From Stakelama marina (lineage in GTDB: Bacteria; Pseudomonadota; Alphaproteobacteria; Sphingomonadales; Sphingomonadaceae), in assembly GCF_018122655.1 (NCBI RefSeq), contig NZ_JAGRQC010000002.1, positions 558,001-622,000 on the forward strand: 64,000 nucleotides of DNA, in the 5' to 3' direction. The position numbers and the translations under genes are program-made. Every line of letters begins with the position of its first letter. Positions within the stretch are counted from its first letter, which is position 1. Positions 33,497 through 60,774 of this stretch are shown in pieces. Below the pieces are notes generated by a model. It did not search any database. It worked only from the letters and a program-made list of their open reading frames with translations, and was not told the origin of the DNA.

Positions 33497-33520
33497 CAGC
33501 TGCGGAGAGCAGAACGCCAG

Positions 33521-34462
33521 ATGGACCGCATCGTCGATATCGCCACCGATGGCCGGCATCTTTCGCTTTATCGCGGATTTCTCGTCGTAGAGGAGAAAAG
33601 CGAGGAGATTGGCCGGATCGCGCTCGACGATGTCTATGCCGTGATTATCCATGCGCACGGCACAACCTGGAGCGCCAATCTCGTGGCAGCACTGGCCGAG
33701 CGCGGTGCACCGATCGTGTTCTGCGGGTCGAACCATGCACCGATCGCAGTCACGCTTCCCATCGAGGGGCATCACGCCCAGAATGCACGATTCCGAGCGC
33801 AGTGGGCTGCGTCCAAACCACTTTGCAAGCAACTATGGCGCCGTATCGTCATGGCCAAGATCACCATGCAGGGATCGCTGCTGGAAGCGCTCGGCATCGA
33901 CGGCGCGCAGGCCTTTGCGCTGATCGCCCGGCGCGTTAAATCGGGAGATTCCGACAATGTGGAGGCACAGGCTGCGCGTCGATACTGGCCGCTGCTGATG
34001 GGCCCGGAATTTCGCCGCAACCGCGACAGCCCCGGTGCAAACGCACTGCTCAACTATGGCTATGCAGTGATCCGGGCCTGTGTCGCCAGGGCGGTCATTG
34101 CGGCGGGTCTTCACCCCACCATCGGCATCAACCACGCCAATCGCGGCAACGCCTTCGTGCTGGCGGACGACCTTGTCGAACCTTTCCGCCCACTGGTCGA
34201 TGCACTCGTGGTCCGGATGCTTGCGCAAGGGATCGATACACTCGATCCGGCCATCAAACGACATTTCGCAAGGCTGATCGCATTCGACCTGCGCATCGGC
34301 GGCGAAGCCTCCCCCCTTTCACTAGCCGCCGTGCGGCTTGCGCAGTCGCTGGCGCGCGCGTTCGAGAGCGGCCGTCCGTCGCTTGCGATCTTCGAACCTC
34401 CGACGCCCATACAATGGGCAGCCCTTGCCCGAGTCGATCTGGACGAAGGGGCTGTCGATTGA
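33521..34462 (+). CDS. cas1: CRISPR-associated endonuclease Cas1
   Basis: Spacer-integration enzyme of 313 aa, type II branch. The metal-binding catalytic residues are visible: Glu148 (VEAQAARRYWP), His205 (GINHANRGNAF) and Asp216/217 (LADDLVEPFRP). N-terminal beta-rich and C-terminal helical domains are as expected. It starts 24 bases after cas9 and its stop overlaps the cas2 start, so all three cas genes form one operon. Confidence 0.97.
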   Translation: MDRIVDIATDGRHLSLYRGFLVVEEKSEEIGRIALDDVYAVIIHAHGTTWSANLVAALAERGAPIVFCGSNHAPIAVTLPIEGHHAQNARFRAQWAASKPLCKQLWRRIVMAKITMQGSLLEALGIDGAQAFALIARRVKSGDSDNVEAQAARRYWPLLMGPEFRRNRDSPGANALLNYGYAVIRACVARAVIAAGLHPTIGINHANRGNAFVLADDLVEPFRPLVDALVVRMLAQGIDTLDPAIKRHFARLIAFDLRIGGEASPLSLAAVRLAQSLARAFESGRPSLAIFEPPTPIQWAALARVDLDEGAVD

Positions 34463-39562: not shown

Positions 39563-39990
39563 CCGCGATCGACGTCGTCATCTATCACAATCCCGATTGC
39601 GGCACCTCGCGCAACACGCTGGCGATGATCCGTAATGCCGGGATTGAGCCGCATGTGATCGAGTATCTCCAGACGCCGCCGTCGCGCGCGATGCTCGAAC
39701 AACTGATCGCCCGCGGCGGGCTGACCCCGCGCGCGCTGCTACGCGAAAAGGGCACGCCCTATGCGGAACTCGGCCTCGGCGATGACAGCCTGTCCGATGC
39801 AGCTCTGATCGATGCGATGATGGCGCATCCGATCCTTATCAACCGGCCGCTGGTGGTGACGCCGATCGGGGTCAGGCTGTGCCGGCCCTCGGAAGTCGTG
39901 CTCGACATTCTGCCGAGCGCGCAGCGCGGCGCCTTTACCAAGGAGGACGGCGAGCGCGTCGTCGGCGACGCCGGCGAGTGTATCGGCTGA
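39559..39990 (+). CDS. arsC: Arsenate reductase, glutaredoxin-dependent type
   Basis: A 143-aa ArsC of the E. coli plasmid type. [14 protein letters not shown] has the catalytic Cys; [17 protein letters not shown] contains the Arg residues that bind arsenate. It uses glutathione and glutaredoxin, so the operon encodes two mechanistically different arsenate reductases. Its start overlaps the previous stop (ATGA) and its stop overlaps arsB. Confidence 0.93.
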
Positions 39991-41276
39991 TGCTGCTCGC
40001 GATCCTGATCTTCGTCGCCACGATCACCCTGGTGATCTGGCAGCCCAAAGGACTGGGTATCGGCTGGAGCGCGATCGGCGGCGCGACTGTCGCGCTGCTG
40101 ACGGGGGTTATCTCGCTCGGCGACATTCCGGTGGTATGGGACATCATCTGGAACGCCACCGGCGCGTTCGTCGCGGTGATCCTGATCAGCCTGGTCCTCG
40201 ACCGCGCCGGCTTCTTCGAATGGGCGGCGCTGCATGTCGCGCGCTGGGGCGGCGGCGACGGGCGCTGGCTGTTCGCGCTGGTCGTATTACTCGGCGCGGG
40301 CGTCGCGGCGCTGTTCGCCAATGACGGCGCGGCGCTGATCCTCACCCCGATCGTCATCGCGATGCTGCGCGCGCTGGGCTATGACGAGAAGGCGACGCTG
40401 GCTTTCGTGATGGCGGCGGGGTTCATCGCCGATACCTCCAGCCTGCCGCTGGTCGTCTCCAATCTCGTCAATATCGTCTCGGCTGATTTCTTCCATATCG
40501 GCTTCGGCCGCTATGCGCTGGTGATGATCCCGGTCGATCTCGCCGCGATTGCTGCGACGCTGGCGGCGCTGATGATCTTCTTCCGCAAAGATATTCCGGC
40601 CCGCTACGACGTCGCGCAATTGCGCGCGCCCGCCGAGGCGATCCGCGACCACGCCACCTTCCGCGCCGGTTGGGTGGTGCTGGCGTTGCTGCTCGCCGGG
40701 TTCTTCGTGCTCGATCCGCTCGGCGTGCCGGTGAGCGCGGTGGCCGCCGTCGGCGCCGTCGTGCTCATCGCCATTGCCGCGCGCGGCCCCGTCATCCCGA
40801 CGCGCACGGTGATCCGCGAGGCCCCTTGGCAGGTCGTGATCTTCTCGCTCGGCATGTATCTGGTCGTCTACGGTCTCAAGAATGCCGGGCTGACCGACGC
40901 GCTGGCCGGGCTGCTGACCCGCGCGAGCGAGGGCGGGGTGTGGGGCGCGGCATTCGGCACCGGCATCCTGGCGGCATTGCTGTCGTCGATCATGAACAAC
41001 ATGCCGACCGTGCTCGTCGGCGCGCTGTCGATCGACGCGACGCAGGCCACCGGCACAGTGCACCAGGCGATGGTCTACGCCAACGTCATCGGTTGCGACC
41101 TCGGGCCCAAGATCACCCCGATCGGCTCGCTGGCCACGCTCTTGTGGCTGCACGTGCTGGGGCAGAAGGGCGTGAAGATCGCCTGGGGCTATTATTTCCG
41201 CGTCGGCATCACGCTGACGACGCCGATCCTGCTCGTGACGCTGGCGGCGCTGGCGCTGCGCCTGACGCTGGCATGA
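39990..41276 (+). CDS. arsB: Arsenite efflux permease ArsB
   Basis: A 428-aa membrane protein with about 12 helices, of the ArsB/NhaD-like ion transporter superfamily, not ACR3. [20 protein letters not shown] and [12 protein letters not shown] are conserved duplicated hairpin segments. It expels arsenite, either alone with the proton gradient or with an ArsA ATPase; no arsA is present in this operon. Starts and stops overlap both neighbours, showing tight coupling. Confidence 0.94.
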
Positions 41277-41596
41277 CCGGCTATCTCGCCTATCCGCTGG
41301 CCGCGCTGTGCGAGATCGCGGGCTGCTTCGCGTTCTGGGCGTGGTGGCGGCTCGACCGCACGCCGGCTTGGATCGTCCCGGGGCTCGCCGTGCTCGCGCT
41401 GTTCGCCTGGCTGCTCGCGCAGGTGCCGACCGACGAAGCCGGGCGTGCCTATGCCGCCTATGGCGGCGTCTATGTGGCTGCTTCGCTGCTATGGCTGTGG
41501 GTCGTCGAAGGCACGACGCCCGATCGCTGGGACGTCGCCGGCGGTGCGGTCGTGCTCGCCGGCGCCGCCATCATCCTGTTCGGCCCGCGCGGCTGA
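41273..41596 (+). CDS. UPF0060 (YnfA-like) small membrane protein
   Basis: A 107-aa protein with four membrane helices. [29 protein letters not shown] and [21 protein letters not shown] are family segments related to small multidrug resistance proteins. Its place in an ars operon, overlapping arsB, suggests a role in arsenical or drug export, but the substrate is unproven. Confidence 0.88.
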
Positions 41597-41619
41597 GCTT
41601 TCTGTTTTCGGAGTTTCGC

Positions 41620-42363
41620 TTGTCCCGTCTGCGCCCGCTTCCCGAGCTCGATCACCTTCCCGCGCTCGACCCGGCCTATGTCCATGAACGGCCCGCGCTC
41701 GGACTCGGCGATGACAGCCCGCGCCCGCGCATTCTGCTGCTCTACGGCAGCCTGCGCGAGCGATCCTATTCGCGGCTCGCGGTCGAGGAGGCGGCGCGGC
41801 TGTTGCACTTGTTCGGCGCGGAGACCCGCATCTTCGATCCCGCCGACCTGCCGCTGCCCGATCAGGTCGCCGGCGACAATCACGCTGCGGTCGCCGAGTT
41901 GCGCGAACACGCTTTCTGGTCCGAGGGCATGGTGTGGTGCAGCCCCGAACGCCACGGCCAGGTCAGCGCGATCATGAAAGCGCAGATCGATCACTTGCCG
42001 CTCAACATCGGCGGCATGCGGCCGACGCAGGGGCGCACGCTCGCGGTGATGCAGGTCTCGGGCGGCTCGCAGTCGTTCAACAGCGTCAACACGCTGCGCC
42101 TGCTCGGCCGCTGGATGCGGATGGTGACGATCCCCAACCAGTCAAGCGTGCCCAAGGCCTATGAGGAGTTCGACGAGACCGGGCGGATGAAACCCTCGCC
42201 GCTCTATGACCGCATCGTCGACGTGATGGAGGAGCTGGTGCGCTTCACCGTGCTGCTCCGTCCCCATGCCGAGCAACTGGTCGATCGCTATTCGGAGCGC
42301 AAAGCGGATGACCGCCCCCTCGACCCAAATCAAGACCTGTCAGCAATCGCCATTCGCTCGTGA
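41620..42363 (+). CDS. arsH: Arsenical resistance flavoprotein ArsH
   Basis: About 247 aa; an NADPH-dependent FMN reductase family member that oxidises trivalent organoarsenicals. [21 protein letters not shown] is the flavodoxin-like FMN loop; [21 protein letters not shown] and [17 protein letters not shown] are ArsH-specific. The start is a TTG at 41620 after GGAG, giving the usual N-terminus [10 protein letters not shown]. It ends the operon; an IS630-type element begins 60 bases after the stop codon. Confidence 0.93.
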
Positions 42364-42423: not shown

Positions 42424-43470
42424 GAGTGTGATCATCTTAGATTGAAGCATATCCGCTGTTTTTGAGATAGTTTGCACACTCGCTTGGAGAGAAGGCGTCG
42501 AGCAGTGAGCCGATGCGTTTCCAGGTGGCCTCGACGGATCGTTCGTTTGCCTTTCGCAGGAGCGTCTTGAGCTTGGCGAAGACCTGCTCGATCGGGTTGA
42601 GGTCCGGGCTGTATGGCGGGAGGAACAGGAGCCTTGCGCCGCAACTGCGGATGGCCTGACGCGCCGCCTGTCCCTTGTGGCTGCCGAGGTTGTCCATGAT
42701 GACGATATCGCCGGGCGCGAGGGTCGGGACGAGGAACTGTTCGACATAGGCGAGGAAGAGCTGCCCGTTGATCGGTCCGTCGAGCACGCAGGGCGCATCG
42801 ATCCGATCGTGGCGCAGCGCGGCGAGGAAGGTCAGCGTGCGCCAGTGGCCGAACGGCACTTTCGCATGCAGGCGCTCGCCACGCGGGGCGCGGCCATGGG
42901 TGCGGGTCATATTGGTCTTGGCCCAGGTCTCGTCGATGAAGACGAGGCGTGTTGGATCAAGCCGGTTCTGGTATTTGCGCCACTGCATCCGTCGGCGGGC
43001 GACGGCCGGACGATCCTGCTCGCTGGCGAACAGGCTTTTTTTTGAACGACAGCCTCTCGCGATCGAGGAACAGCCACAATGCGCCATAGCTCGCCTTTAC
43101 GCCGCGGTCCCTCAGCTCGCCCAACAGCGCGCGCAAAGTCAGGTCGGGCTCGGCCGCAATGCGCGCCAGCAGCCACTCCCGCTCCGGCAGCAGCACCGGC
43201 TTGCGGTGTCCGCCCAGTCTTCCCGGTGCGACCCCGCCAGTCCGGCGCTGGCGCTGCGACCAGCGCACCGCGCTTGCAACGCTCACACCGAACTGCGCCG
43301 CAGCCGCTCGGGCAGAAGCCCCCGAGGCCATCGCCGCAACAACACGCTCACGAAGATCAATCGAATAGGCTCGGCTCATCCCTGCTGGCCTCCTGCCCAG
43401 CCAACAGGTTGAATCAGAAAAATCGTCCCGCGTGAATCCCCAATCGATTCAATCAAACAAGATCATGCTC
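42424..43470. mobile_element. IS630-family insertion sequence, about 1.05 kb
   Basis: Flanked by TA dinucleotides (42422-42423 and 43471-43472), the target duplication of this family. The ends are imperfect inverted repeats: the left begins GAGTGTGATCATCTTAGATT and the right, read inward, GAGCATGATCTTGTTTGATT. One transposase gene in two frames fills the interior on the minus strand. It sits between arsH and a flippase gene and looks intact. Confidence 0.88.
42437..43379 (-). CDS. IS630-family transposase, made by programmed frameshift
   Basis: The first frame (43379 to 42957, 140 codons) encodes the helix-turn-helix part ([17 protein letters not shown]). The second (entering near 43040 and ending at 42437) carries the DDE domain: [21 protein letters not shown] and [13 protein letters not shown] run of nine A on the minus strand near 43035-43043, in the codons for SFKK, is the slip site. 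Joining there gives a normal fused sequence ([18 protein letters not shown]), so the two-frame layout is native, not decay. Confidence 0.88.
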
Positions 43471-43800: not shown

Positions 43801-45315
43801 ATGTTGAATCGTCGCTTGAAGAGCGAGGTCATAGCTCCCAAAACGACGCTTGGACGCGCGCGTGAGGCAGTTATCTGGCGTGCCGGCTCACAGATTGCGG
43901 GGCAACTCGTCACATGGGGTGCCACGTTCCTCGTGATCCGCATCCTCGATCCGCATGATTACGGCCTGTTCGCGATGACTCAGGTGGTGCTGAGCGTGCT
44001 CAACATGCTCAACGGCGCCGGGCTAGCAAGTGGACTGATCCAGAAGCCGGAGGCGGACGAGCGTTCGATCCGCCAGCTTTACGGGATGCTTATCGTGCTC
44101 AATTTCGGGCTGGGTATCGTCCAGTTCGCGATCGCGCCGCTGGTCGCCGCCTATTTCCGCCAGCCGATCGTCGCAGACCTGCTGCGTGTCCAGTCCTTCC
44201 TCTATTTCACGACGCCGTTCGTCGCCTTTCCCTATGCGCTGCTCGCCCGCGCGATCGACTTCAAGCCGCAGGCGAAGGTGTATTTCCTGTCCTCGATCAC
44301 CGGCGCGGTCGCCGCCTTGTGCGGGGCGCTGGCGGGACTAGGCGTATGGACGCTGATCCTTGCGCCAGCCGTGCTGTTCACCACCCGCGCGATCGGCATG
44401 ACGCTCGCTTCCGGCCACCGCTACCGCCCGCTGTTCAACTTTCGCGGCGCCGGCGCGCTGGCGAAGTTCGGCGGACTGATGGCGGCGGGACAATTCTTCT
44501 GGGTGTTGCAGAGCCAGTCCGATGTGTTCATTGCCGGCCGGGTACTGACGCCGACGACGCTCGGCCTCTACACCACCGGCCTGTTCCTGACACAGATCCT
44601 GGTGTCCAAATTCGTGCCCGCGATTAACGATGTCGCCTTCTCGGTCTATGCGCGGATGCAGGACGATCTCGACGCGGTCGCGGTCGGCTTCGCGCGATCG
44701 TCGCGCATGGTGATGCTGGTGGCGATGCCGTTTTATATCGGCCTTGCCGTCACCGCCCATCCGCTCGTCGAGACGGTCCTCGGCCCCAAATGGATCGAGG
44801 CGGCGCCGATCGTACGGCTGCTCGCGCTGGCGATGCCGATGATGACGCTGCAGGTGCTGACGGGCCCGGCGTGCAGCGCGATGGGTCGCCCGGGCCTGAC
44901 CGCGCAGATCGGCGCGGTCGGCGCGGTGATGATGACGATTTGCTTCGCCATCGGCCTGTTCGGGGGCGTTCAGGGCCTCGCCGCTTCCTGGTTTGTCGGT
45001 TATGCGATCTACCTTGCCTATACGGGCGTCCGCACGCTGCCGGTGATCGGGCTTTCTGCTGGGACGCTGGCGCGTGCGATTCTGCCGACGATCACCGCTG
45101 CGGCATCGATGGGGGCGCTGGTGGTGTTAGTCGATGCGGCGCTCCCGCCGATGATCGCACCGGCCCGGCTGGCGATCCTGGTGACGAGCGGCGCGGCGAC
45201 CTATTTTGGCTGGCTTGCGCTGTTCTCGCGCGACCTCTTGTTCGAGGCGGTGGCGATGGCGCGCGGGCGTCCCTATGGCGGCGAAGCGCCGATCCCGGCG
45301 ACCACCGCCGCCTGA
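43801..45315 (+). CDS. Polysaccharide/oligosaccharide flippase (MOP superfamily)
   Basis: A 504-aa protein with about 14 hydrophobic segments, related to Wzx/WzxC lipopolysaccharide exporters. GSQIAGQLVTWGATFLVIRIL at the N-terminus and DPHDYGLFAMTQVVLSVLNM are typical of the O-antigen flippase branch. No glycosyltransferases are nearby. Its 3' end overlaps the convergent phosphopantetheinyl transferase gene by 43 bases, so a role in exporting the peptide product is possible but only inferred from position. Confidence 0.82.
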   Translation: MLNRRLKSEVIAPKTTLGRAREAVIWRAGSQIAGQLVTWGATFLVIRILDPHDYGLFAMTQVVLSVLNMLNGAGLASGLIQKPEADERSIRQLYGMLIVLNFGLGIVQFAIAPLVAAYFRQPIVADLLRVQSFLYFTTPFVAFPYALLARAIDFKPQAKVYFLSSITGAVAALCGALAGLGVWTLILAPAVLFTTRAIGMTLASGHRYRPLFNFRGAGALAKFGGLMAAGQFFWVLQSQSDVFIAGRVLTPTTLGLYTTGLFLTQILVSKFVPAINDVAFSVYARMQDDLDAVAVGFARSSRMVMLVAMPFYIGLAVTAHPLVETVLGPKWIEAAPIVRLLALAMPMMTLQVLTGPACSAMGRPGLTAQIGAVGAVMMTICFAIGLFGGVQGLAASWFVGYAIYLAYTGVRTLPVIGLSAGTLARAILPTITAAASMGALVVLVDAALPPMIAPARLAILVTSGAATYFGWLALFSRDLLFEAVAMARGRPYGGEAPIPATTAA

Positions 45316-45941
45316 TAGCCCGGAACTGGTTCGAACGAGTAAAGCGCCCATCCCGGCGCGGCGCTGGTGAAATAGGCTGGCGCGCGAGGGTCGAGCGAGA
45401 CGCCAAACGAGTCGAGCGGCAGCGACAGCCCCTGGCCTAGCGCCTTCACATAGGCTTCTTTGCGCGTCCAGCAGTTGAAGAAACCGGAGACCCACAGATC
45501 GGCGGGCAGCGCGTGGAGCTCGGCATTCTCGGCATCGGTGAACAGGCGTTCGGCGACCTTCGGGCAGGCAAACGCAGGATCGCGGCGTTCGATGTCGCAC
45601 CCGACCGGGGTGTCCGCGGTAACGACGAGTGCGAAGCCACCCGAACTCGACAGGTTGAAATGCAGGTCCGGCGCGTCGGATAGATAGAGCTTACCCATGG
45701 CATCGGCTTGGATATCGAGCGCCGCCGGGTCGCCGCCGATATGCTTCGCCAGCACCGCGCGGAGTCCGGCGCGCCGGGCGACGAAGCGGTCGCGGTCGTT
45801 GGGACGCTGGAATCGCGCTGCACGCGCGCGTTCCTCGTCGCTCAGCGTCGCTGCCCATGCGTCGAGCGTGGCACGCGACGCGCGCAGGTCGAGCAGCCTT
45901 GTTTGGAAGCTGCCGATATCGCTGGCGGCGAGCGCGCCCAT
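45273..45941 (-). CDS. 4'-phosphopantetheinyl transferase, Sfp type
   Basis: A 222-aa enzyme that converts apo carrier domains to holo form using CoA. HFNLSSSGGFALVV, PVGCDIERRD (Mg-binding Asp/Glu) and FNCWTRKEAYVKALGQGL are the three Sfp motifs. It starts one base after the stop of the C-A-T-TE synthetase gene and is the last gene of the operon, so it is dedicated to the two carrier domains encoded upstream. Confidence 0.93.
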   Translation of the reverse strand: MGALAASDIGSFQTRLLDLRASRATLDAWAATLSDEERARAARFQRPNDRDRFVARRAGLRAVLAKHIGGDPAALDIQADAMGKLYLSDAPDLHFNLSSSGGFALVVTADTPVGCDIERRDPAFACPKVAERLFTDAENAELHALPADLWVSGFFNCWTRKEAYVKALGQGLSLPLDSFGVSLDPRAPAYFTSAAPGWALYSFEPVPGYQAAVVAGIGASPP

Positions 45942-45942
45942 G

Positions 45943-48900
45943 TCAGGCCGCCCGGGCGCGTTCCGCCCCGAGTGCGCGCTGAATCACCTCGCGCAGCCGC
46001 GCCGCCCAGATCTCGACATTAGGGGCGTCGGCCATGTCGTCATGGCTGCCGGGAATGTCGTGGGATTCGAACGGCCCGTGCGCGACCTCGCGCCAGCCCG
46101 GCTCGGTGTCGAGCACGCTCAGCCGGTCCGCGGGCTGGAACAGCGCGAGCGCACCTTCGTAGCGCGGCGGGGCATAGCCATAAGCGGCGCTTTCTAGCGC
46201 CAGCGTGAAACGACGGAACTCGGCATTTTCATGCTCGGCTTCGGCAACGCCGACATCCTCGAGGACGCCCTTTGCGCGGTCGAGTGCGTAGGACAGTCGT
46301 TCTGACACGGGCAACCGGTTCCACATGCCGAGATGGTAGCGCGCCTTGGCCATCCGCATCCTGGTGCGGGTGATGCGCAGGAACGAGACCGGGTTGATCG
46401 CATGGCCGAGCGTGAGCAGCGGCACGTCCTCGCCCACCGCGCGAAGCTGGCGCGCGACTTCGTAAGCGAGGATGCCGTTGGTGCACCAGCCGCCGATCAG
46501 ATATGGCCCGTGCGGACGGTGGCGGCGGATGACGGCGACGACCGCCGCGGCGATCTCCTCGAACCGGATTTCGTCATGGACGATTTGGTCGAGGATCGGG
46601 CCGAGGGGCAGGCCGAAAAAGGGCCGCTCGGTGCCGAGCGCCTGCGCCAGTTCCTGAAAGCGCAGACCGCCGTCGAGCCAGATCATCGGGATGCCGTCGC
46701 CCTCGGGCTGAAGCGGGACGAAGGCGTGGAGATCGCTTCGCTCGTCGCGCGCGGCGCGTTCGGCGAGCGCGCTGAGCGTCGGCGCGCGGAAGATTTCCGC
46801 CATGCCGATGCGGTGGCCCCATTCGTGCTCGATGGCGACGAGCAGCTTGGCGACAAGCAGCGAATGGCCGCCCAGTTCGAAGAAATTGTCGTCGCGACCC
46901 ACCCGCTCGATGCCGAGCAGATCGCACCAGATCGCGGCGAGCCGTTCCTCATCCTCACCCTGCGGCGGGATCAGGTCGGCTGCTGCGGTGCCGCCGGGTT
47001 TAGGCAGCGCCTTGCGGTCGATCTTGCGGTTGGGCGTCATCGGCAATTCGGCCAGCGGCTCGAAATGCGACGGGATCATATATTCTGGAAGGGTTTTGGC
47101 GAGATGCCCACGCAATTCGGCCCGGCCGGGCGTATCGCCATGCGGCACGAAATAGGCGGCAAGCGCGCGTTCACCCGACGCGTCTGGCCAGCTTCGCACG
47201 GCGGCTGCGGCAATGGCTGGGTGTTTGGCGAGCGCGCCCTCGATCTCCTCGACCGCGACGCGATAGCCGCGAATCTTCTCGTCATTGTCGACCCGGCCGA
47301 GGCAGAGCAGCGTGCCGTCGGGTCGCCATTTGGCGAGGTCGCCGGTGCGATAGAGGCGCTCGCCACGGATGGTGACGAACCGCTCGTCGGTCAGGTCCGG
47401 GCGGCCGTGATAGCCCTCAGCCAACCCGGCACCACCGATCCACAATTCGCCGATCTGGCCGATGGGCATGCGGTTGTGGTCGGGATCGAGGATGTGGATT
47501 GCCGTGTTTGCGATAGGACGGCCGATCGGGACCGGGCCATCGCCGCACTGGATACGCGCGATGGTCGACCAGATCGTGGTTTCGGTGGGGCCGTAGACGT
47601 TCCAGACTTCGCCCGAGCGTGCCAGCAGCCGCTCGGCGAGGTCGCGCGGAAAGGCTTCGCCGCCGCACAAGATGCGCAGCGCTGGATGGCCCTGCCATCC
47701 CGCTTCGACCAGCGCGCGCCAGGTTGCGGGGGTAGCCTGCATGACGCTGGGCGATGCTTCGGCCATCAGCGCGATTAGCTCGCGTGGGTCCTTGGTGGTT
47801 TCGCGCGAGGCGAGGATCAGTTCGCCGCCGGATATGAGCGGCAGGAAGAGTTCGAGCCCGGCAATGTCGAACGATAGCGTCGTCACCGCGAGCATCGAGT
47901 CCGCTGCCGTGAAACCGGGTTCGCGGCGGAAGCTGTCGAGCAGGTTGATGAGCGCGCCGTGGCTGATCTCGACGCCCTTTGGGTTGCCGGTCGAACCCGA
48001 GGTGTAGAGGACATAGGCGAGGTCGGTCGGCGCGGTTTCGATGGTCGGAACCGGTCCTTGAACTTCTCCGATATCATCGACGAGCAGGCGCCGGGGCGTG
48101 CAACCTGGAAACACGATATCAAGCGCGCGTTCAGTCAGCAGCGCGGCGACACCGGCGTCGCCGACGATGTAATCGAGCCGCGCTGCGGGAAAATCGGGAT
48201 CGAGCGGCAGATAGGCGGCGCCGATGCGGTGGACGCCGAGCAGTGCCGCGACCATGTCGGGCGAGCGGTCAAGGCAGATGCCGATGAGGTCGCCCGTGCC
48301 GAGGCCCGCACCGCGCAGCGCGGCGGCGATGGCGTCGGCGCGCGCGTCGAGCGCGGCATAGCTGACACTTTCGCCGGCGAAGCGGATCGCGGGGCTGTCG
48401 GGGCGCGCCTTCGCCTGTTCGCGTATCGCCTGTGGCAGCAGATAATCAGGGGCGGGAACGGTGGTGTCGTGCCACTCGCTCGCCAGCCGCTGTTCCTCAT
48501 GCGCGTCGAGGAGCGGCATATCGCGGATCAGGCAGTCGGGATCTTCGGCGGCACGCGCGACGATGTTCAGCCAGTGGCCGATCATCCGGCGGATGGTCGC
48601 AGCGTCGAACAATTCGGTCGAATAGAGGAAACGGCCGAGCATACCGTCGGGCCGCTCGTCGAGTTCGAGATAGAGGTCGAATTTCGCGCCGCCGACGACC
48701 ACGTCCATCTGGGTCAGGTCCCAGCCATCGGGGAAGGGGTCGACGGGCGGTTCGATGGAAAACAGGCAGTTGAACAGCGGGTGCGTGCCCGGCTCACGCC
48801 TGAGGTCGAGCGCGCGGACGACCTCGTCGAACGGCGCCTCGCTCGCGCCCAGCGCGCCGAGCACGCTGTCGCGCACCGCGTTCAGGAAGTCGCGGAATTT

Positions 48901-49935
48901 CATGTCGCCGCGCGGGCGTGCGCGCAGGGCGATGGTGTTGAGGAAATAGCCGACGACGCGCTCCAGCTCGGGGCGTCGTCGCAGGTCGGTGACGCCGCCG
49001 ACGATGATGTCCTCCTCGCCCGAATAGCGGTGCAGCAGCACATGATAGGCGGCGAGCAGCAGCATATAGGGGGTCATCCCGGCGCGGCGGCTGGTCGCGT
49101 CGACCTTTTCGATCAGGTCGAGCGGGATGAAGAAGGTTTCCATCGAACCGGCATGGGTCGGACGCGCGGGTTTCACCCGGTCGCCGGTCAGTTCCAGCTT
49201 CGGCGGCGCATCGGCCAGCGTCTTGCGCCAATAGTCGATCTGACGCTGGACCGGTGGCGACTGGAGATGCGTCTGCTGCCAGAGCGCATAATCGCCATAT
49301 TGCAGCGTCGGTTCTGGCAGTGGCGACGGCTTGCCCGCGGCGAACGCTTCGTAGAGCGCGGCGAGTTCGGGCACGATCACGCGGTAGATCGAGACGCCGT
49401 CGAAGATGATGTGGTGGAGGGTGAAATAGAGCCGGTGATTGTCATCGGCCAGCTTGACGATGCGCGCGCGGAACAGCGGCGCTTCGGAAAGGTCGATCGC
49501 ACGCTTGGCATCGTCGCTGCCGATCTTCAGCGCAGCGGCGTCACGTTCGGCTTCGGGCAGATCGCTGACATCGTCGAATGGCAGGTCGACGTCGCGATGC
49601 TCGCGCACGCGCTGTACCAGAACGCCGTCTTCTTCGAAGAAACCGGTCCGCCATGCCTCGTGCCGGCGAAGGATTTCGTTGACCGCGCGTTCCATCGCCG
49701 CGCGGTCGAAGCTGCCGAAGCGGTGGATGGTGATCGATTCATTATAGAGCGGCATGTCCGGCGCCATGATGGCGTGGAGCCACACCTGGCGCTGGTCGGC
49801 GGATAGCGGGATGACCGCTTGGCTGTCGCGCGGTTCGATCTGCTGTGGCTTGGCGGCGTTCGCCCCGCCGCCGCCACGCATCATCTTTTCGAGCAGCGCA
49901 CGCTTGGATTCGCTCAGATTGGTGTGGGCATTCAC
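45943..49935 (-). CDS. Nonribosomal peptide synthetase, C-A-T-TE (glycine-type A domain)
   Basis: About 1330 aa. The condensation domain (about 40-470) has HHIIFDG near 173. The adenylation domain (about 490-960) has YTSGSTGNPKGV, VYGPTETT, YRTGDL and NRKIDRKAL. Reading the ten selectivity positions against GrsA gives D-I-L-Q-L-G-V-I-W-K, one change from the published glycine code. The carrier domain has DNFFELGGHSLL, Ser near 1022. The thioesterase (about 1075-1320) has GGWCTNG near 1149, Cys where Ser is usual, and retains the late His in IPGSHDDM. The GTG start at 49935 overlaps the P450 stop (GTGA). It should add Gly to the upstream aminoacyl carrier and release the product. Confidence 0.93.
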   Translation of the reverse strand: MNAHTNLSESKRALLEKMMRGGGGANAAKPQQIEPRDSQAVIPLSADQRQVWLHAIMAPDMPLYNESITIHRFGSFDRAAMERAVNEILRRHEAWRTGFFEEDGVLVQRVREHRDVDLPFDDVSDLPEAERDAAALKIGSDDAKRAIDLSEAPLFRARIVKLADDNHRLYFTLHHIIFDGVSIYRVIVPELAALYEAFAAGKPSPLPEPTLQYGDYALWQQTHLQSPPVQRQIDYWRKTLADAPPKLELTGDRVKPARPTHAGSMETFFIPLDLIEKVDATSRRAGMTPYMLLLAAYHVLLHRYSGEEDIIVGGVTDLRRRPELERVVGYFLNTIALRARPRGDMKFRDFLNAVRDSVLGALGASEAPFDEVVRALDLRREPGTHPLFNCLFSIEPPVDPFPDGWDLTQMDVVVGGAKFDLYLELDERPDGMLGRFLYSTELFDAATIRRMIGHWLNIVARAAEDPDCLIRDMPLLDAHEEQRLASEWHDTTVPAPDYLLPQAIREQAKARPDSPAIRFAGESVSYAALDARADAIAAALRGAGLGTGDLIGICLDRSPDMVAALLGVHRIGAAYLPLDPDFPAARLDYIVGDAGVAALLTERALDIVFPGCTPRRLLVDDIGEVQGPVPTIETAPTDLAYVLYTSGSTGNPKGVEISHGALINLLDSFRREPGFTAADSMLAVTTLSFDIAGLELFLPLISGGELILASRETTKDPRELIALMAEASPSVMQATPATWRALVEAGWQGHPALRILCGGEAFPRDLAERLLARSGEVWNVYGPTETTIWSTIARIQCGDGPVPIGRPIANTAIHILDPDHNRMPIGQIGELWIGGAGLAEGYHGRPDLTDERFVTIRGERLYRTGDLAKWRPDGTLLCLGRVDNDEKIRGYRVAVEEIEGALAKHPAIAAAAVRSWPDASGERALAAYFVPHGDTPGRAELRGHLAKTLPEYMIPSHFEPLAELPMTPNRKIDRKALPKPGGTAAADLIPPQGEDEERLAAIWCDLLGIERVGRDDNFFELGGHSLLVAKLLVAIEHEWGHRIGMAEIFRAPTLSALAERAARDERSDLHAFVPLQPEGDGIPMIWLDGGLRFQELAQALGTERPFFGLPLGPILDQIVHDEIRFEEIAAAVVAVIRRHRPHGPYLIGGWCTNGILAYEVARQLRAVGEDVPLLTLGHAINPVSFLRITRTRMRMAKARYHLGMWNRLPVSERLSYALDRAKGVLEDVGVAEAEHENAEFRRFTLALESAAYGYAPPRYEGALALFQPADRLSVLDTEPGWREVAHGPFESHDIPGSHDDMADAPNVEIWAARLREVIQRALGAERARAA

Positions 49936-51185
49936 GCCGCCCGCTCCCGAAAAGCGATGGGAAGAGCCTTCAGCCCGCGCAGCCCCGAATTGGTGCGCCA
50001 TTCGAGATTGTCCGAGGTGACGCGAAGGTCCTCAAGGCGACCCAGCAGCGCGGTATAGGCGATCCGCCCCTCCATCCGCGCCAGCGCCGCGCCGAAGCAG
50101 AAATGCGCGGCCCAGCCGAAGGCGAGGTGACGGTTGTCGGCGCGTGTCAGGTCGAGCGTGTCGGGATCGGGGAAACGCTGGGGATCGCGATTGGCGGCGG
50201 CCATGATCGCCATTACCGCCTCGCCCTTGCGGATCGTCTGCCCGCCCATTTCCAGATCGTGGCGCGCGATCCGCGCAGTGTGCTGGCTGGGTGTTTCGAA
50301 GCGCAGCATTTCCTCGATCGCGGTCTGGACGATGTCGGGATCGTCGCGGAACTGGGCGAGCTTGTCGGGCTGGCGTGTGAGGGTGAGAATACCGCTGCCG
50401 ATCAGGTTGGTCGTTGTTTCCTGCCCGCCGACCATCGTGACGATGGTGTTGGCGATCACCTCTTCCTCGGACAGCCGCTGACCATCGACCTCTGCGTCCA
50501 TCAGCGAGCGGATCAGGCCGTCGCGCGGGTTTCGCTCCTGCTCGCGCACCGCATCGCGGAAATATCCGGTCATGTCGGCGACGCATTGCAGCACGCCGTG
50601 AATGCGGTCCGGGTTGTGCTGGAAGTTGCCGAGCATCTCCGCAAAGGTCGCGGACCATGCCTTCAACTGACGGTGATCGTCGAGCGGCACGCCGAGTAGG
50701 CCGGCGGTGACGATCGCGGGGAAGGGTTCGGCGAAATCGGAGATCAGGTCCATCTCGCCGCGCGCCATCTGCGCATCGATCAGCGAATGGGCGATCTCGT
50801 GGATCTTGCCTTCCATCGCGTCGACGCGGCGCGGGGTGAAGGCGCTCATGCACAGCTTGCGAAGCCGGGTGTGCGCCGGCGCATCGAGGAACAGCATCTG
50901 GCGCGCCATCAGGTCGGCGACCGGACCTAGCGAGGGCAGGCCAAGCGCCTCCATCTTTTTCGGATCAGGCGTCCGATCGGCCGAAAACTCCTTCAGCACG
51001 ACCATCACGTCGTCATAGCGGCTGACGACCCAGGTGTGCATGAACGGGTCCCACATGACCGGCGCTTCTTCGCGCAGGCGCTTGTAGAACGGGTAAGGAT
51101 CGGCATGGACCGCCGGTTCGAGCAGCTGAAACAGGCTCAACCCGGGGTCGAAGGGGGCGGCCTTCGGATGCGCGGGACTGTTCAT
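49932..51185 (-). CDS. Cytochrome P450
   Basis: A 417-aa soluble bacterial P450. VGGQETTTNLIG (about 250) is the oxygen-binding I-helix motif, EEMLRFE the ExxR region, and HFCFGAALARME (about 362) holds the heme-thiolate Cys. The start ATG at 51185 follows AAGGGGG. It lies between two synthetase genes, overlapping the downstream one by four bases, so it most likely oxidises a carrier-bound amino acid or the released dipeptide. Redox partners are not in the operon; the ferredoxin at 26003-26320 is one candidate. Confidence 0.93.
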   Translation of the reverse strand: MNSPAHPKAAPFDPGLSLFQLLEPAVHADPYPFYKRLREEAPVMWDPFMHTWVVSRYDDVMVVLKEFSADRTPDPKKMEALGLPSLGPVADLMARQMLFLDAPAHTRLRKLCMSAFTPRRVDAMEGKIHEIAHSLIDAQMARGEMDLISDFAEPFPAIVTAGLLGVPLDDHRQLKAWSATFAEMLGNFQHNPDRIHGVLQCVADMTGYFRDAVREQERNPRDGLIRSLMDAEVDGQRLSEEEVIANTIVTMVGGQETTTNLIGSGILTLTRQPDKLAQFRDDPDIVQTAIEEMLRFETPSQHTARIARHDLEMGGQTIRKGEAVMAIMAAANRDPQRFPDPDTLDLTRADNRHLAFGWAAHFCFGAALARMEGRIAYTALLGRLEDLRVTSDNLEWRTNSGLRGLKALPIAFRERAA

Positions 51186-51203
51186 GAAAAACCCCCTTGT
51201 GTG

Positions 51204-53015
51204 TCAGCCGCCGGTGCCGCTGGCACGTGCCTCGGCCTCGTTGTCGCTCATCGATTCGATTATCGCGATCAGCATTTCTTCGATCCGTCGGGCAAGTTGG
51301 CGGATGGTTGGCGCCTGGAACAGGTCGCGAAGCTGCAGTTCCACCCCGAAGGCGTCGCTCGCGCGCAGCACCACCTGCGTGCCGAGCAGCGAGTGGCCGC
51401 CTAGCAGGAAGAAATTGTCGTCGATGCCGACGCCTCCGCGTCCGAGCACCCCTTCCAGGATTTCGGCGAGTTTTGCTTCGGCGGGCGTTTCCGGTGCCGC
51501 GAAATCGGCGCTGTCGAGGGCGTTGTCGTCGCCCGGTTCGGGCAGTGCTTTCTTGTCGAGCTTGCCGTTAGCGGTGAGCGGCAGCGAGTCCATCCGCACG
51601 AATGCGCTGGGGATCATATATTCGGGCAGCGTCTCGCCGAGATATTTGCGAAGCGCCTCGGCTGAAACCTCCTCGTCGCCGACGATATAACCGATCAGCA
51701 TGTCGCTGCCGTCCGCCGCAGGCGCCGCGACAACCGCGGCGGAACGCACCGCCGGATGCTCGCGGATGATGCTCGCGGTCTCCTCCGGCTCGACGCGGTG
51801 GCCGCGGACCTTCGCCTGATCATCTAGGCGGCCGTGAAAGGTGATCTGCCCGTCCTCGCGCCAGGCGCCGATGTCACCGGTGCGATAGAAGCGCTGGCCC
51901 TTGATGGTCACGAACCGCTCGGCGGTGAGGTCGGGCTGTCCGCGATAGCCCCGCGCGACCTGCGGCCCACCGATCAGGATTTCGCCCTGCGCGCCGAACG
52001 CGACCGGCTTTCCGTCCTTGTCGAGGATATGGATTACCGTTTGCCCGATCGGACGGCCGATCGGGGGAAGGCCCGATCCGTCGCCCCCCGGTGGCGTCAT
52101 CGCCGAGGTCGAAACCACGGTGCATTCGGTCGGGCCGTAATTGTTGATAAGCTGGAACGAGAGGTTCGGCGCTGGCCGATCGACCAGCCGGTCGGCACCA
52201 GTCAGCAGATAGCGCAAGCCGCTTCCCCGCGCCCAGTCGTCGCGGATCAGATCCTGCGCAAGCTGGGTCGGAACGAAGGCGACCGTCACTCCCTGCACCA
52301 GCAGCCATGCGCGCAGCAGCGAGTCCGACGTGCGCACGTCATCGGGCGCGAGCACCACGGATGCGCCGGCTGCAAGATAGGGCCATACTTCCCAAACCGA
52401 GGCGTCGAAGCCGAGCCCGGCAAGATGGCTGCCGCGGTCCTTTGCGGTCACGCCGAACGCGTCGTTATGCCAAGTGACGAGGTGCGCCAGGTTGGCGTGC
52501 GTAATCTCGACGCCCTTCGGTTTTCCGGTCGTTCCCGAGGTATAGATGACATAGGCGAGGGGATCGGGGTCCATCGAAATCGCCGGTTCACCGGAGGCCT
52601 TTTCCACTGCATCCCAATCGAGCAGCTTAACGTCGACATCGGCACCGCTCAGCCGGTCGACAGTGTCGGCCCGCCCGAGGATAAGTGCGCATTCCGCCTC
52701 CCGCGCGATCATACGCAGCCGGGCGTCGGGCCATGCAGGATCGAGCGGCAGGTACGAGGCACCCGCTTTCCATGCGGCCAATGCCGCTATGATCTGATCG
52801 AAAGACCGCTCGAGACACAACCCGAGGAGTGCACCCGAGCGAACCCCTTGGCCGCCCAGCCAATTCGCTAGTTGATCGGCGCTCCGATTCAATTCACCGT
52901 AAGCAAGCGTGCCACAATCAGCAACTAGTGCAGGTCGTCCAGGACCCGCTGCTGCATGCGCAGCAATTGCCTCCGCGACCGACGATGGCATGTGCCGGTC
53001 AAAGGGTGCGTCCAT
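51204..53015 (-). CDS. Nonribosomal peptide synthetase, A-T (leucine-type A domain)
   Basis: About 603 aa, loading module without a condensation domain. The adenylation domain has YTSGTTGKPKGV near 165, NNYGPTECTV, YRTGDIGAW and TANGKLDKKAL. The selectivity positions read D-A-W-F-L-G-N-V-V-K, which equals a published leucine code. The carrier domain has DNFFLLGGHSLLG, Ser near 538, and a short acidic C-terminal helix that may dock to the next synthetase. The ATG at 53015 was chosen (GAAGG upstream); a GTG at 53042 is in frame. It is first gene of the operon; the 60 bases before it are AT-rich and probably hold the promoter. Confidence 0.92.
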   Translation of the reverse strand: MDAPFDRHMPSSVAEAIAAHAAAGPGRPALVADCGTLAYGELNRSADQLANWLGGQGVRSGALLGLCLERSFDQIIAALAAWKAGASYLPLDPAWPDARLRMIAREAECALILGRADTVDRLSGADVDVKLLDWDAVEKASGEPAISMDPDPLAYVIYTSGTTGKPKGVEITHANLAHLVTWHNDAFGVTAKDRGSHLAGLGFDASVWEVWPYLAAGASVVLAPDDVRTSDSLLRAWLLVQGVTVAFVPTQLAQDLIRDDWARGSGLRYLLTGADRLVDRPAPNLSFQLINNYGPTECTVVSTSAMTPPGGDGSGLPPIGRPIGQTVIHILDKDGKPVAFGAQGEILIGGPQVARGYRGQPDLTAERFVTIKGQRFYRTGDIGAWREDGQITFHGRLDDQAKVRGHRVEPEETASIIREHPAVRSAAVVAAPAADGSDMLIGYIVGDEEVSAEALRKYLGETLPEYMIPSAFVRMDSLPLTANGKLDKKALPEPGDDNALDSADFAAPETPAEAKLAEILEGVLGRGGVGIDDNFFLLGGHSLLGTQVVLRASDAFGVELQLRDLFQAPTIRQLARRIEEMLIAIIESMSDNEAEARASGTGG

Positions 53016-53129
53016 GACTTTAGCCTTCGAAGTTTTCCACACCCCGCATTATCTCCGCATATCAGTTTATATTTGATTAGAGATCGCCATATTGTTTCCA
53101 AAGAAAGAATAAGGGTTAGAATTCCGTCT

Positions 53130-53560
53130 CGGCTGTCTGTGCAACGACCTTATATCGCTCTGATGTGCTCCCCTGATTGTTGCCAGTCAGAGGTGGAATC
53201 CGGTTCATCCATGATGGTTGTGATGGGATGGCAAGGGCGATCTCCGCGGGGGCTTCCCACCCAGCTTCGAGTGCGTCGCGACGCGGTTGTAATCGTGCCG
53301 CCAAGCATCGAGCACGAAGCGGGATGTGCCAGCGACCTGAACAACGTCTCGTTGACGCATTCGTCGCGCAAGCGACCATTAAAGCTTTCGACGAAGCCGT
53401 TCTGCATCGGCTCGCCCGGGGCGATGTGATGCCATTCGACGCAGCCCTTCTGCGACCAGCACAGGATGGCGGATGAGGTCCACTCGCTGCCATTGCCGCT
53501 GACCACTGTGGATGGCTTCCCACGAAACCAGATCAGCGCCGTCAGTTCACCGGCAGGGTC
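53130..53560 (-). pseudogene. IS3-family transposase remnant
   Basis: Minus-strand frame with the integrase-core segment [20 protein letters not shown] followed by [14 protein letters not shown], clearly IS3 orfB. After that point the homology moves to another frame ([17 protein letters not shown]-like residues), and the first catalytic region reads VVSGNGSEW, with Gly where Asp is expected. Neither orfA nor the ends are present. This is a decayed fragment beside the peptide synthetase operon. Confidence 0.8.
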
Positions 53561-58135: not shown

Positions 58136-58462
58136 TCAGCGACGACTATAGGCCAGGAATGCCCATTCCGGTCCATATGCCTTTTGCAGTGTCATCGCGA
58201 TGCCGCCCGACGAAGGCCATGCATCGGATACCTTGATATAGCTGTAGGCGACCAGCGCCGTAACGACAGCACCTGCTATGAAAGACAGGGGGAAGAGCGG
58301 TCCGGCGAGTTCGGCTATCTGTCCGGTTAGCGCGAAAATTCCGGCGCCGATCATTACACCGGCCCCCATGGCGACCGCACCGGTCAGGGTGATCGACTCA
58401 GTCCCTTCGTCGACATGCTTCCAGTCGGAACGCGAGGTTGGCGCCTCGTCCTGCTCGTTCAC
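58136..58462 (-). pseudogene. Truncated APC-family amino-acid permease
   Basis: 108 codons corresponding to the first three helices of an amino-acid permease (ITLTGAVAMGAGVMIGAGIF and PSSGGIAMTLQKAYGPEW), which normally has about 430 residues and 12 helices. The frame ends abruptly at YSRR and no continuation is found downstream. Its ATG overlaps the stop of the copper ATPase gene (ATGA), so the fragment is still translationally coupled. Confidence 0.75.
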
Positions 58463-60774
58463 AGGCGAACTGTCCGAAGTCGCAATGCGTTGAGCACGAC
58501 CGAGATCGACGACGCGCTCATCGCGAAGGCGGCGAACATCGGGCTAATCAGAATGCCGAGGAACGGGAAGAGGATACCCGCCGCGACCGGCACGCCGGCT
58601 GCGTTGTAGATCAGCGCGAAGAACAGGTTTTGTCGGATGTTGCCCATCGTTGCCCGGGCAAGTCGGCGTGCGCGCACAATACCGTCGAGGTTGCCGCGCA
58701 CCAGCGTGATTCCCGCGCTCTCGATCGCCACGTCGGCCCCGGTGCCCATCGCGACGCCAACATCGGCCTGGGCAAGCGCAGGCGCGTCGTTGACGCCGTC
58801 GCCCGCCATCGCAACCTTGCGGCCCTGTTCCTGAAGCTCGCGGATGATCCGCGCCTTGTCCTCGGGCAGCACGCCCGCGCGGATCTCGTCGATGCCGAGC
58901 CGGGCAGCGACCGCCCTTGCGGTGCGTTCATTGTCGCCCGTCGCCATGATGATGCGCAGCCCGAGTTTGTGGAGCGCCTTCAGCGCGGCGGGCGTGGTTT
59001 CCTTGACCGGGTCGGCGACGGCCACCAGCCCCGCGACCTTGCGGTCAAGGACGACGAACATCACCGTCTCGCCCTCGTCGCGGCGTTCGTCCGCCTTTGC
59101 GCCGAGCGCGACGGCATCGAGCCCGAGATCGGCGAGCAGCGCGACATTGCCGAGCGCGACCGGCCTGCCACCGACCATGCCCATCACGCCCTTGCCGGTG
59201 ACGGCTTCGAACTCGTCGGCCTGCTCAGTCGCGATACCGCGATCGTCGGCGCCGCGCACGATCGCTTCCGCCAGCGGATGTTCCGATCCGAGTTCGAGCG
59301 ACGCCGCCAGCCGCAGCACCTCCGCCTCGTCGTGCCCCGGCTGCGGCAACACGGCGACGAGCCGTGGTTTTCCCTCGGTCAGCGTGCCGGTCTTGTCGAC
59401 GATCAACGTGTCGATCGTTTCGAACCGTTCGAGCGCCTCGGCATTCTTGATCAGCACGCCCGCCTGTGCGCCGCGCCCGGTAGCGGTCATGATCGACATC
59501 GGCGTGGCGAGCCCGAGCGCGCACGGACAGGCGATAATCAGCACAGACACCGCCGCGATGAGCGCGTAGGACAGCGCTGGTGACGGTCCCCCGATCGCCC
59601 AGGCGAAAAAGGCGATCACGGCAACACCGATAACCGCAGGAACGAAGAACCCCGCTACCTTGTCGGCATATTTCTGAATCGGCGCGCGCGAACGCTGCGC
59701 GGCAGCGACCATCTCGACGATCTGCGCCAGCATCGTGTCCGAACCCACTCGCGTCGCGGTCATCACCAGGCTACCGGTGCCGTTGATCGTCGCGCCGGTC
59801 AAACGATCGCCAGCCACTTTCTCCACCGGAACCGGCTCGCCGCTAATCATGCTTTCATCGACCGAGGAGCGTCCCTCGACCACCGTGCCGTCAACCGGCA
59901 CCTTGTCGCCAGGACGCACGCGCAGCCTGTCGCCGACCGCAACATCTTCAAGCGGGATTTCCGCCTCGCTGCCGTCCTCGCGAATGATGCGCGCCGTCTT
60001 CGCCGCAAGGTCGAGCAGCGCGCGGATCGCCTTGCCCGTACCCTCGCGTGCGCGCAGTTCCATGATTTGCCCGAGCAACACCAGCGTGACGATGACCGCC
60101 CCCGCTTCGAAATAGACCGCGACATGGCCTTCGGCATCGCGAAAGCCGGAGGGAAAAATGCCCGGCGCAATGACGGCGACGACGCTGAACAGCCACGCTG
60201 CCATCGTCCCCATCGCGATCAGCGAGAACATGTTTAAGTTGCGTGAGCGGAAAGAGTTCCAGCCACGCACGAGGAACGGCCAACCGCACCACAGCACTAC
60301 CGGCGTGCCCAGCACGAACTCCACCCATAGCGCGGTTCGCTCGCCGGTCGCAGCGCGGATGCCGCCCAGCCCGACGAAACCGCCCATCGCCAGAATGAGC
60401 AGCGGCACTGTGAGCGCTGACCCGATCCAGAAACGGCGGGTGAAATCGATCAGTTCGGGATTGGGGCCCTGCTCCGCCATGCTCGCCGATTCGAGCTCCA
60501 GCCCCATACCGCACAGCGGACACGAGCCCGGCTCGGGCTGCCGCACCTCAGGGTGCATCGGGCAGGTATAGACCGGTCCGTGATAGCTAGGCGGGACGTG
60601 ATCATATTTACCCGTGGCAGCACCGTGCGACTGGTGGGCGTCAGGGCCATCGCAATGGGTGTGAGGATCGGTCGCCGCCTCACCCTCCGCGACGAGATGC
60701 ATTCCGCATTTCGGGCAGTCGCCGGGTGCATTCTCGCTAATTTCGGGATGCATCGGACAGGTGTAAACGGTCAT
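58459..60774 (-). CDS. copA: Copper-type P1B ATPase with two N-terminal YHS-like metal-binding modules
   Basis: A 771-aa cation-exporting ATPase. Two CPMHPE modules (residues 5-30 and 69-93, each with a paired CPKCGM/CPLCGM) replace the usual ferredoxin-like metal-binding domains. The membrane core has [13 protein letters not shown] with the CPC metal site, [12 protein letters not shown] with the phosphorylated Asp, SGEPVPVEK in the actuator, HPLA in the nucleotide-binding domain, and [25 protein letters not shown] and [15 protein letters not shown] carry Tyr/Asn and Met/Ser residues typical of Cu(I) selectivity. The gene overlaps both neighbours. Confidence 0.92.

Follow-up and report, generated by a model that had tools for sequence, protein, structure and literature searches.

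What does a four-gene nonribosomal peptide synthetase (NRPS) operon with a cytochrome P450 gene in its midst produce, and at which step does the P450 act? The operon lies in a 64,000-nucleotide stretch of the 3.33-Mb genome of Stakelama marina (assembly GCF_018122655.1, contig NZ_JAGRQC010000002.1, positions 558,001 to 622,000); the whole of this stretch is called the window. Its genes encode, in order, a loading protein with an adenylation (A) and a carrier (T) domain, the P450, a protein with condensation (C), A, T and thioesterase (TE) domains, and an Sfp-type 4'-phosphopantetheinyl transferase (PPTase). As read from the sequence (domains, intact catalytic motifs, operon organisation, leucine- and glycine-type codes, a Cys nucleophile and conservation), the operon is an NRPS pathway that is intact, compact and conserved, and its product is most likely an oxidised leucyl-glycine dipeptide. 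The fuller reading, that carrier-bound leucine would undergo oxidation, probably of its beta carbon, and then be joined to glycine and released as the dipeptide or a cyclic form, is given a rough probability of 0.6.

The four intact genes are all on the minus strand and occupy about 7.8 kb. Their features are as follows, with the residues of the C-A-T-TE protein counted from its ATG-start frame (1352 amino acids).

51204..53042, minus strand, A-T loading protein, 612 amino acids from GTG (PF00501, PF13193 and PF00550 above cut-off; code by alignment)
51561-52961, minus strand, A domain of the A-T protein, code DAWFLGNVV, Lys494
51282-51473, minus strand, carrier domain of the A-T protein (PF00550)
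49932..51185, minus strand, cytochrome P450, 417 amino acids (PF00067, 97.8 bits; alignment; motifs across relatives)
45943..50001, minus strand, C-A-T-TE protein, 1352 amino acids from ATG (Pfam domains; junction DNA)
48484..49821, minus strand, condensation domain, HHIIFDG intact (PF00668, 320 bits; alignment)
47023..48423, minus strand, second A domain, predicted Gly-type, code DILQLGVIW, Lys993 (Pfam; code alignment; comparison with DhbF)
46756..46947, minus strand, second carrier domain, GGHSLL (PF00550)
45946..46746, minus strand, TE domain (PF00975; alignment; AlphaFold2 model; survey of relatives)
45273..45941, minus strand, Sfp-type PPTase, 222 amino acids (PF01648, PF22624)

All expected Pfam domains of the four genes exceeded their cut-offs. 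The A-T and P450 genes are separated by 18 bases that include a ribosome-binding-site-like AAGGGGG, and the C-A-T-TE and PPTase genes are joined in the sequence TGACATG. The P450 and C-A-T-TE genes overlap in GTGA if the latter starts at GTG 49935, which is likely its true start and would give a protein of about 1330 instead of 1352 amino acids. A first-pass annotation, made from the letters alone, had described four tightly coupled genes at 45273-53015; the genes, their order and their coupling were borne out, and the range was extended, because the A-T frame reaches GTG 53042 and position 53015 is an alternative ATG start. Chance or misread genes were ruled out by the intact frames, the Pfam domains and the same-genus relatives described below.

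The catalytic motifs were likewise intact. Both carriers retain their serine in GGHSLL, and the C-A-T-TE protein combines an HHxxxDG motif, an A domain and a carrier serine, as does an NRPS elongation-termination module. In the P450, the acid-alcohol motif GGQETT and the haem motif FGWAAHFCFG are present, with Cys363 (codon 50097-50099) as the haem ligand. Alignments also revealed that the A-T protein ends in a conserved tail, which bears an MSD-type motif, and, in the closest relatives, a conserved S-KR-LLEKM-RG stretch at the N-terminus of the C-A-T-TE protein; both would fit the docking of two proteins that must meet. In the genome search, the operon held the sole condensation domain found, and one of the two ACPS-family proteins found was its PPTase. 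No Rfam match at gathering level was obtained anywhere in the window.

The codes that had been read by eye as D-A-W-F-L-G-N-V-V-K and D-I-L-Q-L-G-V-I-W-K were reproduced by alignment, including the conserved C-terminal Lys494 and Lys993. We take the first to be a leucine code, although the code strings were not found in the review text searched. This identity, together with the near-invariance of the code beside P450 relatives (see below), supports a Leu-type first A domain, as the first-pass annotation had it.

The glycine reading of the second code has independent support, since the residues and spacing of a known glycine enzyme are matched. According to the cited passages of PMC11253843, Asp656 of DhbF is the ligand of the amine, and the pocket is taken up by Trp755, itself held by a hydrogen bond to Gln699; Asp712, Gln755 and Trp811 of the second A domain are spaced by 43 and 56 residues, exactly as in DhbF. 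Moreover, the LgrA dimodule, DhbF and AB3403 ranked among the top relatives of solved structure for the second module, and the same passages assign glycine to AB3403 and valine and glycine to the LgrA dimodule. The second A domain is thus predicted to be Gly-type. DhbF and LgrA share these glycine-code residues, but they belong to the bacillibactin and linear gramicidin lines, unlike the four-gene operon; furthermore, the DhbF structure in those passages includes an MbtH-like protein, whereas no MbtH match was found in the genome search of S. marina. The simplest predicted product is still the one proposed at first, an oxidised Leu-Gly dipeptide or a cyclised form of it, and neither a close match to a characterised cluster nor a prediction of different substrates appeared.

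To see how far the operon is conserved, relatives were sought in 199 genomes of the same order, comprising the window's own, 120 others of the same genus and 78 others of the order. Near-full-length C-A-T-TE relatives occurred in 10 of the 120 (50-78% identity) and in none of the 78. In all ten loci the A-T and P450 genes lay directly upstream (the A-T of L030 is cut by a contig end), the P450s being 64-92% identical to that of S. marina, and a PPTase was found in nine (not in L024). The closest named relative was Stakelama sediminis DSM 27203, with identities of 97% for the P450, 94% for the A-T protein and 95% for the C-A-T-TE protein. In a comparison of open reading frames, other flank genes were common only within the pairs L023/L027, L024/L026, L029/L031, L032/L033 and L034/L035, so the gene set sits in varied surroundings; for the same reason a cluster longer than five genes (the operon and a neighbouring flippase) is not supported.

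A wider scan of genome contigs, with the P450 alignment as query, yielded 157 relatives, of which the 80 best (57-97% identity) were analysed. The titles of their records include sphingomonads, other Alphaproteobacteria, Acidobacteria, Chloroflexi (Thermogemmatispora, Dictyobacter), Rokubacteria, a planctomycete (Isosphaeraceae) and others; many are metagenome-assembled genomes, and the phyla follow these titles with unchecked labels. This set (L036-L115) and the 14 loci L022-L035 share several contigs and are not independent. Of the 80, 78 had the oxygen-activation motif GGQETTTN and 79 had the haem motif. An A-T match ended within 600 bases upstream of the P450 in 76, the exceptions being L057, where a C domain intervenes, L076, L084 and L092. 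Among these A-T-bearing loci, the first-A code was fully readable in 72, partial in one and unreadable in three; it was DAWFLGNVV in 66 of the 72 and differed at one position in the other six. A C-A-T-TE-like stretch lay within 900 bases downstream of the P450 in 71 loci, and its second-A codes were far more diverse: of 61 readable ones, 35 were DILQLG/Gly-type, 14 DIE-type (DIEDIG, DIENIG, DIESVG) and 12 others. Since the P450 and the first residue remain paired whereas the second residue varies, the P450 is expected to act on the first, carrier-bound residue. The conserved front end therefore points to carrier-bound leucine as the probable P450 substrate, an evolutionary argument that falls short of proof. 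The P450 gene had earlier been called embedded; it is present as described, but it is not merely embedded, as it goes with the leucine loading step across relatives.

An alternative, which we consider unlikely, is that the P450 acts later, on the dipeptidyl group held by the second T domain, on the free dipeptide after release or on its cyclised form, in the manner of CypX with cyclo(Leu-Leu). Its best NCBIfam match was indeed the cyclodipeptide-associated P450 family TIGR04538, at 216.5 bits, which is below the cut-off of 500. In the fold search, made with a P450 model of predicted local distance difference test (pLDDT) score 75, staphylococcal CypX relatives ranked high (Z about 41, 22% identity) beside CYP142, P450BioI (second) and CalO2. 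However, the 50 rows listed differed little in Z score (42.6 to 39.1). The CypX match is hence unspecific, and P450s that act on carriers are not told apart from others by fold. By sequence, the best solved relatives were P450BioI and PksS (among the best 60 of 446 listed); structure titles indicate that P450BioI was solved with acyl-carrier substrates, which speaks for action on carrier-bound leucine. Later action also sits poorly with the placing of an A-T directly before the P450 in nearly all relatives and with a leucine code that is nearly fixed while the second residue varies widely among loci sharing the P450.

Several observations weigh against oxidation of leucine on the first carrier. 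Firstly, the P450 is in frame with second-module stretches in ten closed frames from Acidobacteria-type records (L063, L067, L073, L078, L080, L085, L086, L094, L098 and L111) and in two more cut by contig ends (L104, L105); the L080 frame, the sole fusion tested with Pfam, reads P450-A-T-TE without a C domain. Such fusions show the P450 close to the second module and are the chief result that would also fit later oxidation, on the second carrier. Secondly, nine of the 80 loci have no C-A-T-TE-like start within 900 bases after the P450, and four of these (L076, L077, L087, L114) show no separate place for it in the stretch examined. Thirdly, in two distant sphingomonad relatives (L032 14445-15683 and L033 14279-15511; 45-46% identity) the P450 lacks the oxygen-activation acid, with Gly in its place (GGLGT), the A1 code is different, and extra genes lie between P450 and C-A-T-TE. 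Fourthly, a Paraburkholderia plasmid carries a P450 homologue (41%) with no NRPS gene listed nearby. Fifthly, across 51 loci the A-T distances track those of the C domain (r 0.862) about as closely as those of the P450 (0.866), with 0.763 for P450 and C (Mantel test; 0 of 999 permutations as high for each). The C domain is thus no less a part of the inherited block than the P450, and the A-T/P450 correlation was set aside as proof of pairing. Finally, sequence alone fixes neither the hydroxylation nor its target carbon. As a separate observation, a glycosyltransferase and a 483-amino-acid protein without a Pfam match adjoin the fused gene of L080.

The plasmid collection contained no P450 relative of at least 60% identity, and plasmid-borne spread of the operon was not backed, as the best plasmid relatives listed reach about 41%. 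One of them, on a Nostoc plasmid (L118 5658-9209; 41% identity), stands after an AMP-ligase, whose C-terminus appears carrier-like by eye, and before polyketide synthase and NRPS genes, an arrangement that favours oxidation on a carrier.

Oxidation of leucine on the A-T protein would resemble known A-T and P450 pairs (NovH/NovI, Qui18/Qui15, NikQ with its carrier, PlyR), in which a stand-alone loading protein presents the amino acid to the P450. Here, too, the A-T protein stands alone with an intact carrier serine, and the P450 is coupled to it across relatives. In the cited passages, Qui15 acts on Qui18-bound Trp and is inactive on free Trp (PMC3578932), PlyR is proposed as a leucine beta-hydroxylase through its likeness to NikQ (PMC3943440), and the quinomycin and polyoxypeptin pathways are proposed to use a distinct thioesterase that first sets the hydroxy acid free (PMC3578932, PMC3943440). 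The operon differs from the known pairs in its Leu-type residue and in that the pair would feed a C domain directly.

We infer hydroxylation and its position, the order of steps, the released form, export and any biological role as follows. The PPTase would arm both carriers, and the A-T protein would load L-leucine onto its own carrier. The P450 would then oxidise the bound leucine, with the beta carbon as the likeliest site, as in the other pairs. The C domain would use the (hydroxy)leucyl group as donor for condensation with the glycine that the second carrier holds. The Cys thioesterase would release the dipeptide by hydrolysis or cyclise it as a diketopiperazine or, through the new hydroxyl, as a lactone, and the neighbouring flippase may export the product. 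It is possible, though improbable in our estimate, that the P450 carries out another oxidation of carrier-bound leucine, namely gamma or delta hydroxylation, desaturation or N-oxidation: the site is not determined by sequence, and release from a terminal glycine demands no beta-hydroxyl. On the other hand, the P450s acting on carrier-bound amino acids in the cited passages of PMC3943440 and PMC3578932 are beta-hydroxylases, which favours the beta carbon.

The TE departs from the usual catalytic triad. Its nucleophile is Cys1173 (codon 46483-46485), a cysteine in 15 of 15 aligned relatives, and His1200 (46402-46404) occupies the usual place of Asp, position I. In the AlphaFold2 model (pLDDT 85.3; numbering by offset, strand names after the cited passages of PMC11298585), Cys1173 follows beta5, residue 1200 beta6, Asp1292 (46126-46128) and Asp1298 (46108-46110) beta7, and His1320 (46042-46044) beta8. 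In 31 Cys TEs with Gly-type codes (30 loci and the window), residue 1200 was His in 27, Asp in two, Thr in one and Met in one; among six Cys TEs with other codes, three had Asp, two had Ala and one (poorly aligned) had Val there. The 14 Ser TEs, one of which has a Gly-type code, carried Asp (13) or Glu (1). The 27 His-type TEs came mostly from sphingomonad and other alphaproteobacterial records and may go back to one evolutionary event; their residue 1292 was Glu in 15 and Asp in 12, and residue 1298 Asp in 26 and Glu in one.

The best TE fold matches were the EntF TE, the NocB TE and AB3403. AB3403 (A. baumannii, 4ZXH), described in the cited passages as uncharacterised, aligned as one stretch over residues 158-1330 of the C-A-T-TE protein and shares its domain order, Gly-type A domain and Cys nucleophile; however, it keeps the position-I Asp, where the operon TE has His.

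These features raise the possibility, which we regard as quite doubtful, that the TE is ring-forming, with a mechanism related to those of the obafluorin and sulfazecin TEs (ObiF1 and SulM), and makes a strained ring. According to the cited passages of PMC6668435 and PMC11298585, those TEs have a Cys nucleophile, lack the Asp at position I and rely instead on one that follows beta7; the operon TE resembles them in the Cys, the absent Asp, the candidate acids after beta7 and the His after beta8, and its small product would fit a size remark made there. The products of ObiF1 and SulM, however, depend on a last residue that bears a beta nucleophile, and the terminal residue here is predicted to be glycine, which would make a beta-lactone or beta-lactam on it impossible. 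Position I is His here and Gly in ObiF1; the SulM TE has a Gln-Cys-Asn motif, whereas Cys1173 is followed by Thr; and the acid-His spacing is 28 (Asp1292) or 22 (Asp1298) against 30 in ObiF1 and SulM. Moreover, Glu at 1292 alone is no class mark, because 12 of the 14 Ser TEs share it, and Cys is not always paired with loss of Asp, which is kept in 5 of the 37 Cys TEs. The ObiF1 and SulM TEs are absent from the 50 best structural matches listed, which excludes nothing. For the preferred Leu-Gly pathway, release may be by hydrolysis or by ring closure that involves either the amine or the new hydroxyl.

A literature search, which did not cover cluster databases, found no description of such an operon or pathway, in agreement with the first-pass annotation. 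The kind of NRPS is known; what appears new to us is that a Leu A-T/P450 pair feeds a glycine module ending in a Cys/His TE, and that the front end is so widespread. As a bold conjecture that we hold with little confidence, the Leu A-T/P450 pair could be an ancient, widely traded starter unit and the TE a third kind of Cys TE, with His for the position-I Asp, that closes hydroxyleucyl-glycine into a new small ring. If so, the starter unit would supply the same oxidised leucine to many unrelated NRPSs, and ring closure in the sphingomonads would possibly run through the P450-installed hydroxyl. Four genes in about 7.8 kb are small enough for rebuilding in a laboratory host, and the rebuilt pathway would reveal the product of a P450/leucine starter unit common to records from several phyla. 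The same starter with Gly-type and other second modules is a natural series for the donor needs of C domains, and the TE would test whether Cys TEs that have lost the position-I Asp are tied to small products generally or to last-residue ring closure only.

The surroundings of the operon contain the following features.

43801..45315, plus strand, MOP/polysaccharide-type flippase (PF13440), convergent with the PPTase gene and overlapping its 3' end by 43 bases
42437-43379, minus strand, IS630-type transposase in two overlapping frames, beyond the flippase
53150-53506, minus strand, IS3-type transposase remnant, about 110 bases upstream of the first operon gene
39879-42363, plus strand, ArsB arsenical pump and ArsH, beside the operon block
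58459-60774, metal-type P-ATPase
30311-34462, plus strand, Cas9-like protein of 1061 amino acids (RuvC_III, HNH, weak Cas9_a), then Cas1

A flippase relative was found in nine of the ten close same-genus loci (not in L029), with other genes between it and the PPTase in L028, L030 and L031, and within the stretch examined in just 14 of the 80 wider-scan loci. Many same-genus genomes that lack the operon nevertheless have homologues of about 54-63% identity, and another such genome, G011, has one at 82%. A dedicated cluster role for the flippase is thereby weakened. A polysaccharide setting was likewise not supported, as 20 flank proteins of relatives gave a single glycosyltransferase (L045) and no pattern. 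In same-genus genomes (for example G038:C1:235, G023:C20:116 and G063:C12:227), the flippase homologue often starts about 100-900 bases from the contig start, as if a repeat (a ribosomal RNA operon or an insertion sequence) lay just upstream.

The IS630-type and IS3-type insertion sequences flank the block of flippase and operon, one per side; their terminal inverted repeats were sought and none was clearly recognised. With ArsB/ArsH and the P-ATPase, these surroundings look like an accessory island. The closeness of the IS3-type remnant and the IS630-type element beyond the flippase would suit a decaying or silent insertion that yields no product in this strain, but the four frames and the checked motifs are intact and the P450 matches its S. 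sediminis counterpart at 97% identity, so we think this very improbable. Apart from this, a compact CRISPR-Cas9-type locus lies about 9-10 kb from the operon block.

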